From Burkholderia sp. Ac-20379 (GTDB taxonomy: Bacteria; Pseudomonadota; Gammaproteobacteria; Burkholderiales; Burkholderiaceae), in assembly GCF_017104645.1 (NCBI RefSeq), contig NZ_JAAGPF010000036.1, positions 1-37,814 of the forward strand: 37,814 bases of DNA, written 5' to 3'. A model generated the notes under the pieces. It did not search any database. It saw nothing but the letters and a program-made list of their open reading frames with translations, and was not told where the DNA came from. Below are positions 21,980 to 29,203 of this stretch, piece by piece; position 1 is the stretch's first letter, and each line of letters opens with the position of its first letter. Made by a program: the position numbers and the translations under genes.

Positions 21980-22642
21980 ATGGACCAAAGAAAATTCATC
22001 GCGCCGCCGCCCCCCCGTACGTGGGATGCGCGGCTCGCGCGCCGGCTCGTCACGCCGCTCGTCGACACGCCCGTCACCCCGAACCACCTGACCACGCTGC
22101 GCCTGCTGATCGGCCTTGCGGGCGCCGTCTGCCTGGCGCAGGGCGGCTTCGGCTGGATCAACGCCGGCGCGCTCCTGATCGTGCTGTCGAACTTCGTCGA
22201 CCACACCGACGGCGAACTGGCCCGCATCAGCGGCAAGACCAGCAAGATCGGCCACTTCTACGACCTCGCCAGCGACGCGGTGATCACCGTCGCGCTGTTC
22301 GTCTGCATGGGCGCGGGCGTGGTGGCGCAAGGCGGCCACATGTTCGCGTCGCCGGTGCTGCTCGGCACGGTGGCCGGCGCGGCCGTCGCGCTGATCTTCT
22401 TCCTGCGCATGCGCATCGAATCGTTCGCGGGCAAGGCCGGCACCAAGCAGGCCTCGATCGGCGGCTTCGAAACCGAAGACGTGCTGTACCTGCTGCCCAT
22501 CGTCACGCTGCTCGACGGCGTCGAGCGCTTCGTCCTGGCCGCCGCGATCGGCGCGCCCGTGTTCGCGGCCTGGGTCGTGATCGATTACTGGCGCGTCGTG
22601 CGCCGCGGCGCCGTGCCGGCCGCCGACACCCCGAAGGCCTGA
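21980..22642 (+). CDS. CDP-alcohol phosphatidyltransferase family membrane enzyme
   Basis: This 220-residue integral membrane protein has about six hydrophobic segments. The complete family motif DxxDGxxAR-x8-GxxxDxxxD is present: Asp74, Asp77, Gly78, Ala81, Arg82, Gly91, Asp95 and Asp99. These enzymes transfer a phospho- (or phosphono-) alcohol from a CMP- or CDP-activated donor to an acceptor alcohol, using two metal ions bound by the four aspartates. As first gene of a cluster making 2-aminoethylphosphonate (AEP), a plausible reaction is CMP-AEP plus diacylglycerol giving a phosphonolipid and CMP; this is inference. A housekeeping phosphatidylglycerophosphate or phosphatidylserine synthase role is less likely given the neighbours. 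The ATG at 21980 has no ribosome site. The next gene starts seven bases after its stop. Confidence 0.9.
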   Translation: MDQRKFIAPPPPRTWDARLARRLVTPLVDTPVTPNHLTTLRLLIGLAGAVCLAQGGFGWINAGALLIVLSNFVDHTDGELARISGKTSKIGHFYDLASDAVITVALFVCMGAGVVAQGGHMFASPVLLGTVAGAAVALIFFLRMRIESFAGKAGTKQASIGGFETEDVLYLLPIVTLLDGVERFVLAAAIGAPVFAAWVVIDYWRVVRRGAVPAADTPKA

Positions 22643-22649
22643 CCATTCC

Positions 22650-26991: not shown

Positions 26992-28136
26992 TCGAGGCAG
27001 CCCAGTTCGTCGAGGCCGCGCGCGCGCGCGGTTTCGATTCGTACGCGGGTGTGCCCTGCTCGTATCTGACGCCGTTCATCAATTACGTGCTGCAGGATCC
27101 GTCGCTGCACTACGTGTCGGCGGCCAACGAGGGCGACGCGGTCGCGCTCGCGGCCGGCGCCACGCTGGGCGGCCGGCGCAGCATCGCGATGATGCAGAAC
27201 TCGGGCCTCGGCAACGCGGTCAGCCCGCTGACCTCGCTGACCTGGACCTTCAAGCTGCCGCAGTTGCTGATCGTCACCTGGCGCGGCAAGCCGGGCGAGC
27301 ACGACGAGCCGCAGCACGCGCTGATGGGGCCGATCACGCCGCAGATGCTCGACACCATGGACATCCCGTGGGAGCTGTTCCCCACCGAAGCCGAGCAGAT
27401 CGGCCCGGCGCTCGACCGCGCGATCCGTCACATGGACGAAACGGGCCGGCCCTACGCGCTCGTGATGCAGAAAGGCAGCGTGGCCGCCTATCCGCTCAAG
27501 GATGCGCCGATGCCCGCGCCGCGCCCGCACGTCGTGCCGGTCGTGGCCGCGAACGCCGCCGCCGCGCTGCCGTCGCGCCATGACGCGCTGTCGGCCGTGA
27601 TCGCGCGCACGCCGCTCGATTCGACCGTGGTGCTGGCCTCCACCGGCTTCTGCGGGCGCGAGCTGTACGCGCTCGACGATCGCGCCAACCAGCTCTACAT
27701 GGTCGGCTCGATGGGCTGCGTGACGACGCTCGCGCTCGGCCTCGCGCTGGCACGCCCCGACCTCACCGTGGTGGCCGTCGACGGCGACGGCGCCGCGCTG
27801 ATGCGCATGGGCGCGTTCGCCACGCTCGGCGCCTACGGCCCGAAGAACCTGATCCACCTGCTGCTCGACAACGGCACGCACGAATCGACGGGCGGCCAAT
27901 CCACCGTCTCGCCGTGCGTGTCGTTCGCCGCCGTGGCGGCCGCGTGCGGGTATGCGTCGGCGCGCGAGGGCGATCTGAGCGCGATCGAGGCGCTGTTCGC
28001 CGAGCCGGCCGACGGCGCGCGCTTCGCCTGCGTGAAGATCCGCACCGGCGTGCCCGACGGGCTGCCGCGCCCGACCGTGACGCCGGTCGAAGTGAAGGAA
28101 CGTCTGATGCGCCACATCGGCGCGGGAGCCCAATGA
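26988..28136 (+). CDS. ppd: Phosphonopyruvate decarboxylase
   Basis: This 382-residue thiamine diphosphate enzyme has the glutamate that activates the cofactor in SAANEGDAVALAAG (Glu48), and the TPP/magnesium motif running from GDG (266-268) in AVDGDGAALMRMGAFATLG to DNGTHESTGGQ (294-304). It shows the N-terminal GVPCSYLTPFINYV typical of phosphonopyruvate decarboxylases. It converts phosphonopyruvate to phosphonoacetaldehyde, the irreversible step that pulls the unfavourable PEP mutase reaction forward. Length is normal. Overlaps of four bases with both the mutase and transaminase genes indicate coupled translation. Sulfopyruvate decarboxylase is a relative, but the adjacent mutase settles the assignment. 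Confidence 0.95.
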   Translation: MIEAAQFVEAARARGFDSYAGVPCSYLTPFINYVLQDPSLHYVSAANEGDAVALAAGATLGGRRSIAMMQNSGLGNAVSPLTSLTWTFKLPQLLIVTWRGKPGEHDEPQHALMGPITPQMLDTMDIPWELFPTEAEQIGPALDRAIRHMDETGRPYALVMQKGSVAAYPLKDAPMPAPRPHVVPVVAANAAAALPSRHDALSAVIARTPLDSTVVLASTGFCGRELYALDDRANQLYMVGSMGCVTTLALGLALARPDLTVVAVDGDGAALMRMGAFATLGAYGPKNLIHLLLDNGTHESTGGQSTVSPCVSFAAVAAACGYASAREGDLSAIEALFAEPADGARFACVKIRTGVPDGLPRPTVTPVEVKERLMRHIGAGAQ

Positions 28137-29203
28137 TGCTGTTGCTCAATCCCGGCCCGGTCACGCTGACCGAGCGCGTGCGCCAGAGCCTGCTGCAAAC
28201 CGATCTCTGCCATCGCGAAAGCGAGTTCTTCGACCTGCAGGACGAAGCGCGCACGCGCCTCGTCGCGGCCTACGATCTCGACCCGGCCGAATGGCAGGCC
28301 GTGCTGATGACGGGCTCCGGCACCGCCGCCGTCGAAAGCATGATCGCCGCGCTGGTGCCCGAGGACGGCAAGCTGCTCGTGATCGAGAACGGCGTGTACG
28401 GCGACCGCATCGCGCAGATCGCCAAGCAATACCGGATCGCGCACGAGGTGCTCAAGCACGAGTGGATGGAAGCGCCGGATCTCGGCCGCATCGAGGCCGC
28501 GCTGGCCGCCGACCGCGCCATCACGCACGTGGCCGTGATCCATCACGAAACCACCACCGGCCGCCTCAACGCGCTCGGCCCGATCGCCGAGCTGTGCCGC
28601 CAGCATGGCGCGCGCTTGCTGGTGGACGGCGTCAGCAGCTTCGGCGCCGAAGCGATCGATTTCGCCGACGGCGTGACCGACGCCGTGGCCGCCACCGCCA
28701 ACAAGTGCCTGCACGGCGTGCCCGGCGCGGCGTTCGTGATCGTGCGCAACGCGGCGCTGGCGCGCGCCGCGAGCCGCACCTATTACCTCGATCTCGGCCG
28801 GCTCGCCAAGCTGCAGGCCCAGCGCAACACGCCGTTCACGCCGTCGGTGCACGCGTATTACGCGCTCGTCGAGGCACTGCGCGAGTTCGAGGACGAAGGC
28901 GGCTGGCAGGCGCGCCATGCCCGTTACCGGGCGCTCGCCGATCAGGTGCGCGATGGCCTGGCCGCGCGCGGCATGTCGCTGGTGCTGCCGGACGGCGAAT
29001 CGTCGGTCGTGCTGCGCGCCTACACGCTGCCGGCCGGCGTCGGCTACGAGCCGCTGCACGACGGCCTCAAGGCGCGCGGCTTCGTGATCTACGCGGGCCA
29101 GGGCGGGCTGTCGGCCTCGTTGTTCCGCGTCTCGACGATGGGCGCGATCGCCCCCGCCGACATGGATCGCCTGCTCGCGGGTTTCGACGCGCTGACGCGT
29201 TGA
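28133..29203 (+). CDS. phnW: 2-aminoethylphosphonate transaminase
   Basis: This 356-residue fold-type I (class V) PLP aminotransferase opens with LLLNPGPVTLTERVRQSL and CHRESEF, typical of AEP:pyruvate transaminases. TGSGTAAVESM binds the cofactor phosphate, LLVDGVSSFGAE has the PLP Asp (165), and ATANKCLHGVPG has the Schiff-base lysine (191). In a biosynthetic cluster it should run from phosphonoacetaldehyde to 2-aminoethylphosphonate. The catabolic partner phosphonoacetaldehyde hydrolase (PhnX) is absent nearby, which supports synthesis over breakdown. The ATG at 28133 overlaps the decarboxylase stop; a second ATG follows immediately at 28136. It is the last gene before a strong terminator. 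Confidence 0.94.
   Translation: MMLLLNPGPVTLTERVRQSLLQTDLCHRESEFFDLQDEARTRLVAAYDLDPAEWQAVLMTGSGTAAVESMIAALVPEDGKLLVIENGVYGDRIAQIAKQYRIAHEVLKHEWMEAPDLGRIEAALAADRAITHVAVIHHETTTGRLNALGPIAELCRQHGARLLVDGVSSFGAEAIDFADGVTDAVAATANKCLHGVPGAAFVIVRNAALARAASRTYYLDLGRLAKLQAQRNTPFTPSVHAYYALVEALREFEDEGGWQARHARYRALADQVRDGLAARGMSLVLPDGESSVVLRAYTLPAGVGYEPLHDGLKARGFVIYAGQGGLSASLFRVSTMGAIAPADMDRLLAGFDALTR

Follow-up and report, generated by a model that had tools for sequence, protein, structure and literature searches.

A seven-gene phosphonate operon of Burkholderia sp. Ac-20379 and its possible link to hopanoid lipids

The window analysed here is the whole 37,814-nucleotide stretch of contig NZ_JAAGPF010000036.1 from Burkholderia sp. 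Ac-20379 (contig C319 in our numbering, from a draft genome of 7.4 Mb in 826 contigs), and our subject is an operon-like run of seven genes at 21980-29203, which contains the complete set from phosphoenolpyruvate (PEP) to 2-aminoethylphosphonate (AEP). An initial annotation had proposed that this operon makes a membrane lipid with a C-P head group. This is still the best general reading of an operon without glycan, capsule or nonribosomal peptide synthetase (NRPS) genes, but the idea was already in print, the head group is probably hydroxylated, and the acceptor suggested by the gene neighbourhoods of relatives is not a glycerolipid but a hopanoid, one of the bacterial lipids akin to cholesterol. 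We found the module beside or inside hopanoid gene clusters in several Burkholderiaceae genera, Alphaproteobacteria and some Cyanobacteria, and this hopanoid link across genera and phyla is the new observation here. We therefore give a probability of roughly 0.6 to the reading that (hydroxy)AEP goes onto a hopanoid polyol ahead of diacylglycerol, because the transferase family of gene 1 stands in a hopanoid context with or without the PEP mutase PepM, while PepM clusters without this transferase lack such a context. The evidence observed directly consists of the gene identities, their catalytic residues, their co-inheritance and their embedding in the hopanoid clusters of relatives. Genes were identified with Pfam and NCBIfam profiles at curated cut-offs, and both libraries agreed on the gene identities. 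The features are as follows (NTP, nucleoside triphosphate):

21980-22642, plus strand: gene 1, CDP-alcohol phosphotransferase of 220 amino acids (Pfam CDP-OH_P_transf, 52 bits, cut-off 22)
22650-23459, plus strand: gene 2, Fe(II)/2-oxoglutarate (2OG) oxygenase with HalD/BesD fold and triad H151-x-D153...H211 (Pfam HalD)
23456-24454, plus strand: gene 3, HpnL/LPG-synthase-TM hopanoid-associated flippase-like membrane protein (TIGR03476, 361 bits, cut-off 195.65)
24539-25306, plus strand: gene 4, PntC-type NTP transferase (cytidylyltransferase) with an alternative GTG start at 24527 (best solved relative Treponema PntC, 6pd1)
25303-26991, plus strand: gene 5, fusion of PepM and an NTP transferase, two domains
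25303-26202, plus strand: PEP mutase domain of gene 5, residues 1-300, with EDKQFPKTNS (TIGR02320, 409 bits, cut-off 319.55)
26203-26991, plus strand: fused NTP transferase domain of gene 5, residues 301-562, without the signature arginine (Pfam NTP_transf_3)
26988-28136, plus strand: gene 6, phosphonopyruvate decarboxylase, Ppd (TIGR03297, 456 bits, cut-off 312.5)
28133-29203, plus strand: gene 7, AEP aminotransferase, PhnW/AepZ (TIGR03301, 411 bits, cut-off 360.8)
29236-29261, plus strand: hairpin of 11 pairs resembling an intrinsic terminator, with A and T runs on its flanks (terminator scan)

Hopanoid genes in the genomes and around the module

The window's own genome has a squalene-hopene cyclase (G000:C9, 731 bits, cut-off 431.1), and the cyclase (TIGR01507) was found in all 63 PepM-positive Burkholderiales genomes searched (61 above cut-off, 2 in fragments), which were a selection from the PepM-positive genomes of genus, family and order and were not each checked singly for the transferase. 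Outside this set, a transferase profile run over named genomes gave 423 relatives, and among the best 80 of these (loci L123-L202) the genomes behind PepM-positive loci had the cyclase above cut-off in 26/26 cases, although one of the 26 (L124) is apparently the already counted G482, with identical hit coordinates. The cyclase was also present in 13 of 14 genomes whose transferase locus lacked PepM (14 chosen of 54). As controls, it was above cut-off in 4/36 PepM-negative order genomes, and present in 7/61 genomes of a phylum sample and in 3/9 genomes with PepM but without this transferase beside it (G973 among the three); in PepM-negative family genomes the figure was 3/7. With phylogeny ignored and the duplicate counted, 89/89 differed from each of the controls 4/36, 7/61 and 3/9 at Fisher p <1e-7, and the 25 non-duplicate genomes differed from 3/9 at p = 6e-5, phylogeny again ignored.

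Gene neighbourhoods were scanned in the best 80 loci, which by title are mostly from Alpha- and Gammaproteobacteria, Nitrospinaceae and Nostocales, with none titled Burkholderiaceae; they were ranked by likeness to a distant homologue and do not form a random sample. With hpnL left out of the count and score thresholds that we set ourselves, at least one hopanoid gene lay within about 10 kb in 55 of these loci, namely in 14/26 with PepM in the locus and in 41/54 without it. PepM loci without this transferase had a hopanoid gene in 0/12 cases (flanks of about 8 kb, some cut by contig ends). One of these control loci, L114 (G973), combines PepM and Ppd with genes for an NTP transferase, an oxygenase of the PhyH type and an HpnL-like protein, but has no recognised CDP-alcohol transferase; it may not be a clean control but a relative, or a divergent version, of the module.

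One annotated case was plasmid pBRH01 of Mycetohabitans rhizoxinica HKI 454, in which the module is contiguous with hopanoid genes in this order:

part 1: CDP-alcohol transferase, 2OG oxygenase, LPG-synthase-domain protein, cytidylyltransferase, aepX, aepY, aminotransferase
part 2, continuing: dxs, two hypothetical genes, MMPL transporter, ABC substrate-binding protein, ispH, hpnH, hpnA
part 3, continuing: glycosyltransferase, hypothetical gene, shc, hpnD

Dxs, HpnN, IspH, HpnB, HpnG, HpnE, HpnD and Shc above cut-offs also stand beside the module in genus g11 (L065/L203), where the presumed HpnM gave no match at 1e-20, and HpnN was above cut-off in genus g16 (L062). In a Rhodospirillales metagenome-assembled genome (L155), HpnH, IspH, HpnA and HpnM exceeded their cut-offs, as did the AEP aminotransferase, and HpnN exceeded one of two; in Sphingomonas sp. 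PP-CE-1G-424 (L201), HpnH was above cut-off and HpnN above one of two. The HpnG match of L125 stayed below cut-off. Nostoc punctiforme NIES-2108 (L177) is a further named carrier of the module. For loci without PepM, HpnI, HpnJ, HpnK and HpnL of L202 were above cut-offs, and the HpnA-like proteins of L135 and L156 scored 332 and 353 against a cut-off of 367.65.

Several of these neighbourhoods had layouts of their own. L183, L195, L199, L200, L202 and similar loci lack PepM and have two CDP-alcohol transferases, one on either side of hpnL-hpnI-hpnJ-hpnK; they possibly serve other phospho-hopanoids in Gammaproteobacteria and Rhodospirillales. The transferase is paired with an HpnA-like epimerase, again with no PepM in the locus, in L156, L157 and L158 (Nitrospinaceae) and in L135, L136, L146 and L153. 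Three different CDP-alcohol transferases occur within one phosphonate-hopanoid cluster in L125, L128 and L155, and in L141, L143 and L152 Ppd, aminotransferase, PhyH oxygenase and transferase lie inside a hopanoid cluster with PepM not found in the locus. A Rieske oxygenase (VanA_C) gene lies between two CDP-alcohol transferases at L086:12319-13398.

Layout and inheritance of the operon

All seven open reading frames (ORFs) are intact, consecutive and on the plus strand, and neighbouring genes overlap by 4 bases at junctions 2-3, 4-5, 5-6 and 6-7; the ATG start of gene 3 at 23456 is visible in the translation. The layout given in the initial annotation was thus borne out, including the 555-base gap upstream of gene 1 (21425-21979), the LPG/HpnL-type membrane protein, the mutase-decarboxylase-transaminase set (each above its curated NCBIfam cut-off) and the absence of glycosyltransferase, capsule or NRPS genes within the operon. 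The terminator that it placed after the gene set corresponds to the hairpin listed above, in a region with 13 terminator-like sites against 5.6 (standard deviation 2.4) in shuffled sequence. Four Burkholderia replicons matched the operon at 83.6-84.1% identity over 98% of its length.

In Burkholderia the cluster is close to core, with the PepM fusion found in 64/65 genomes of the genus, the window's own included. It was present in 206 of 349 sampled family genomes (11/25 genera) and in only 9/300 sampled order genomes, five of the 9 coming from the family, and in the phylum sample only 14/398 genomes had PepM, some of them unfused. Around PepM in 20 other Burkholderiaceae loci, all seven genes were colinear in 15; one (L063) had six of the seven, with the aminotransferase not found; three loci of genus g20 had PepM-Ppd-aminotransferase only, and the decayed L054 (G143, also g20) had PepM and a partial decarboxylase, with no aminotransferase found beside PepM. 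When g20 loci were found through the transferase, genes 1-4 stood together without PepM in 10/10. This split means that the operon consists of two modules, one of transferase, oxygenase, HpnL and NTP transferase and the other of PepM, Ppd and aminotransferase.

Both modules were kept even when split, since the transferase was present in 80/80 PepM-positive family genomes, 39 of them from g20. It was also present in 5/5 further PepM-positive genomes and in 0/38 PepM-negative ones, several of which are strongly reduced genomes. The pairing of CDP-alcohol transferase and PEP mutase that the initial annotation wished to see searched for was therefore found in 85/85 PepM-positive and 0/38 negative genomes.

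A few observations concern decay and neighbouring genes. In one copy (G058:C2:249888-251561) an in-frame stop interrupts PepM and the remaining six genes were found, and two loci from the window's genus, L118 (G036) and L119 (G033), carry second PepM genes without a fused NTP transferase match and with other neighbourhoods. Elsewhere in the window, on the minus strand, 9739-13425 reads by eye from the translations as a sugar-type ABC transporter operon (binding protein, ATPase, permease), and 30976-32244 is an ORF with GQPGYQ-type repeats and a glycine-rich C-terminal part, also noted by eye.

Catalytic residues, activation and the head group

Gene 1 belongs to the CDP-alcohol phosphotransferases by both motif and fold, and its eight-residue motif D-x2-D-G-x2-A-R-x8-G-x3-D-x3-D is intact, as had been annotated. 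When 40 transferases were aligned (the window's and 39 selected from the 80 retained loci), seven of the eight residues were invariant and the Arg was present at a frequency of at least 90%. The PepM domain fits the PEP mutase motif EDKxxxxxNS and aligned with the solved PEP mutase 1m1b at 448 bits.

Two nucleotidyltransferase domains had been annotated and both are present, but only gene 4 resembles a working AEP cytidylyltransferase. Among solved structures it is closest to the AEP cytidylyltransferase domain of Treponema PntC, and alignment to 6pd1 showed that it keeps the equivalents of Arg15 (67/67), Lys25 (68/68) and Lys153 (68/68) among aligned copies with a letter there. These residues matter in Tde-PntC, where alanine mutants of each retain <10% activity, according to the mutant data in PMC6697681. 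The signature arginine of GxG(T/S)R was found in 0/62 aligned copies of the PepM-fused domain with a letter there, and the PK lysine (62/62) and GD aspartate (64/64) were retained. Because the fused domain lacks the arginine whose loss cuts Tde-PntC activity below 10%, we assigned AEP activation to gene 4 and rejected the idea that both nucleotidyltransferases activate AEP. Gene 4 is the likely CYTIDYLYLTRANSFERASE and is proposed as a (hydroxy)AEP cytidylyltransferase; the fused domain may be degenerate, regulatory, or working in another way.

Gene 2 resembles HalD and BesD weakly, and its Pfam match is to HalD only, so it falls outside the PhyH family of PhnY/PhnY*. The 2OG halogenases HalD and BesD have Gly in place of the iron-binding Asp (HxG), and HalD has HWG in the alignment where gene 2 has HxD. 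The hydroxylase triad HxD...H was kept in 45/45 and 44/44 aligned copies, the former for HxD, and gene 2 was therefore rejected as a halogenase. The structure model of gene 2 had a mean pLDDT (predicted local distance difference test) of only 67, and its HalD fold match agrees with the sequence and adds little.

What suggests a function for gene 2 is its displacement elsewhere. Three Burkholderiales loci (L086, L088, L089) lack the HalD-type gene and have an oxygenase of the PhyH type between NTP transferase and CDP-alcohol transferase; for the two of these substitutes that were scanned, the best NCBIfam match was the methylphosphonate hydroxylase PhnY (199.5 and 191.9 bits, below the cut-off of 500). 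The same exchange was seen in Cyanobacteria, with the HalD type in L164 and L173 and the PhyH type in L165 and L172, and both types together were found in 0 loci of the neighbourhood scan. PhyH-family genes are described as homologous to the AEP-utilisation gene phnY in the relevant passage of PMC3909097, and the oxygenase PhnY* is stated to produce (R)-1-hydroxy-AEP in that of PMC8154272; we read the two as one gene. Since gene 2 is displaced by a family with the expected activity, we propose that it is likely an AEP 1-hydroxylase, acting on carbon 1, and its functional likeness to PhnY rests on this displacement. The head group is thus probably 1-hydroxy-AEP, given the hydroxylase triad and the replacement by a PhnY-like hydroxylase.

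That the head group is plain AEP and the oxygenase has a different substrate, for example the lipid moiety, seems unlikely to us. It would fit the distance of gene 2 from its solved relatives HalD, BesD and lysine hydroxylase, which are named for amino-acid substrates, but it does not account for a PhnY-like hydroxylase taking the place of gene 2 in a similar position, nor for the either/or occurrence of the two oxygenase types across the scanned loci. The hydroxyl also bears on detection: 1-hydroxy-AEP and phosphoethanolamine have exactly the same computed formula, which would make a diacylglycerol product fully isomeric with phosphatidylethanolamine (PE) and easy to overlook by mass alone. 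Lipid mass spectrometry, which the initial annotation had suggested as a check, could therefore mislead.

The acceptor and the rival products

From this gene set we infer its reactions, the head-group hydroxyl and, above all, the acceptor, as follows. The PepM domain would rearrange PEP to phosphonopyruvate, Ppd would decarboxylate it, and the aminotransferase would then aminate the product to AEP. Gene 2 would hydroxylate carbon 1 before or after activation, and gene 4 would convert (hydroxy)AEP into its cytidine monophosphate (CMP) conjugate. With this conjugate as donor, gene 1 would then attach the phosphonate to one of the hydroxyls of a hopanoid polyol, for example bacteriohopanetetrol, and HpnL (gene 3) would assist the movement of the resulting phosphonohopanoid across the membrane.

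Several results weigh against a hopanoid acceptor. The window holds no hopanoid gene except hpnL and so does not itself qualify as part of a hopanoid cluster; the draft genome has shc, as well as another hpnL together with hpnI, on contigs other than this one. Only 9/41 Burkholderiales loci, the window included, showed a hopanoid gene within about 8 kb. Among the PepM-positive loci of the best 80, 12/26 (ten of them Nostocales) had none within 10 kb, some being cut by contig ends, and in 3 of the 14 positive loci an HpnM-like match was the single hopanoid hit. The co-occurrence tests carry no phylogenetic correction, and their p values only indicate strength. Finally, the solved structures listed as relatives of gene 1 include no enzyme with a described hopanoid substrate, although such fold lists cannot tell the acceptor and a missing hopanoid-using relative excludes nothing.

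The main rival product is a glycerophosphonolipid, in which the same enzymes put (hydroxy)AEP on 1,2-diacylglycerol in a Kennedy-type reaction and make a phosphonate analogue of PE alongside outer-membrane hopanoids. We consider this possible but rather doubtful, because it leaves unexplained the squalene-hopene cyclase in every module-bearing genome tested, as well as the gene 1 relatives that stand without PepM beside hpnA-like genes or hpnI-hpnJ-hpnK. A product that is no lipid at all, either a phosphonoglycan or a diffusible phosphonate, appears very improbable. It has a precedent in the PntC clusters studied so far, which contain genes for LicD or glycosyltransferases and whose presumed role is the decoration of cell-wall glycans, as described in part of the literature on them, but the present operon has no glycosyltransferase, LicD, exporter or NRPS gene, and co-inheritance of its membrane CDP-alcohol transferase had no exception among the genomes tested. 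Two further candidates were set aside: a ceramide acceptor, since a review states in its section on the subject that Burkholderia lacks sphingolipid biosynthesis genes, and the Burkholderia phosphonate flavophos, whose clusters were, in the description cited, chosen for lacking the decarboxylase.

The phosphonolipid prediction itself is not new. A 2018 Nostoc paper (PMC5987646, Fig. 7 legend) shows these genes from lichen cyanobionts and, for comparison, a homologous cluster of Burkholderia, with the same CDP-alcohol transferase, 2OG oxygenase, NTP transferase, pepM, ppd, AEP transaminase and hpnL, and calls it phosphonolipid synthesis; its abbreviations include HAEP (1-hydroxy-2-aminoethylphosphonate), the figure is adapted from Yu et al. 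2013, and, unlike our reading, this part of the paper draws no link to hopanoid synthesis. The Pnt pathways, in the part of PMC6697681 that describes them, share PepM-Ppd-AEP transaminase and a LicC/PntC-like enzyme, with fused and separate nucleotidyltransferases both occurring, but the three clusters have LicD-like or glycosyltransferase genes where the present operon has CDP-alcohol transferase, oxygenase and HpnL. A 2021 paper reported Roseomonas hybrid clusters of shc and PEP mutase and suggested an undiscovered terpene-phosphonate (PMC8776678); the link of hopene cyclase to PEP mutase is the same, but the passage concerned notes it for one family, without transferase, hydroxylase or cross-phylum evidence. 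The sphingophosphonolipid of Bdellovibrio stolpii (Watanabe 2001, as cited in PMC8154272) is likewise a bacterial membrane lipid with a 1-hydroxy-AEP head group, but it is a sphingolipid, for which the review named above gives Burkholderia no genes. In the searchable open literature, with subscription papers including Yu et al. 2013 outside the search, we met a single prediction that combines hopanoid and phosphonate, in the Roseomonas passage, and no isolated compound.

Extending the phosphonohopanoid reading beyond this operon, we regard it as an even bet that phosphonohopanoids with (1-hydroxy-)AEP exist, made by a CDP-alcohol transferase family that as a whole is associated with hopanoids, and that PepM-free members of the family, namely those with hpnA-like genes or with hpnL-hpnI-hpnJ-hpnK, make further phospho-hopanoids. 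On this reading phosphonohopanoids would be almost universal in Burkholderia and would extend across Alphaproteobacteria and Nostocales. If so, a whole membrane-lipid class would have been overlooked in well-studied bacteria, the phosphonate and hopanoid fields would be joined, and hydroxy-AEP would have a bacterial source; according to the part of PMC8154272 that treats this compound, an enzyme that degrades it is known and information on its natural abundance is limited. Hopanoid biomarker chemistry would have further compounds to search for. This nearly core Burkholderia operon, so far an orphan, would gain a product, and hopanoids would gain hydrolysis-resistant, amine-bearing head groups, which would bear on outer-membrane strength.

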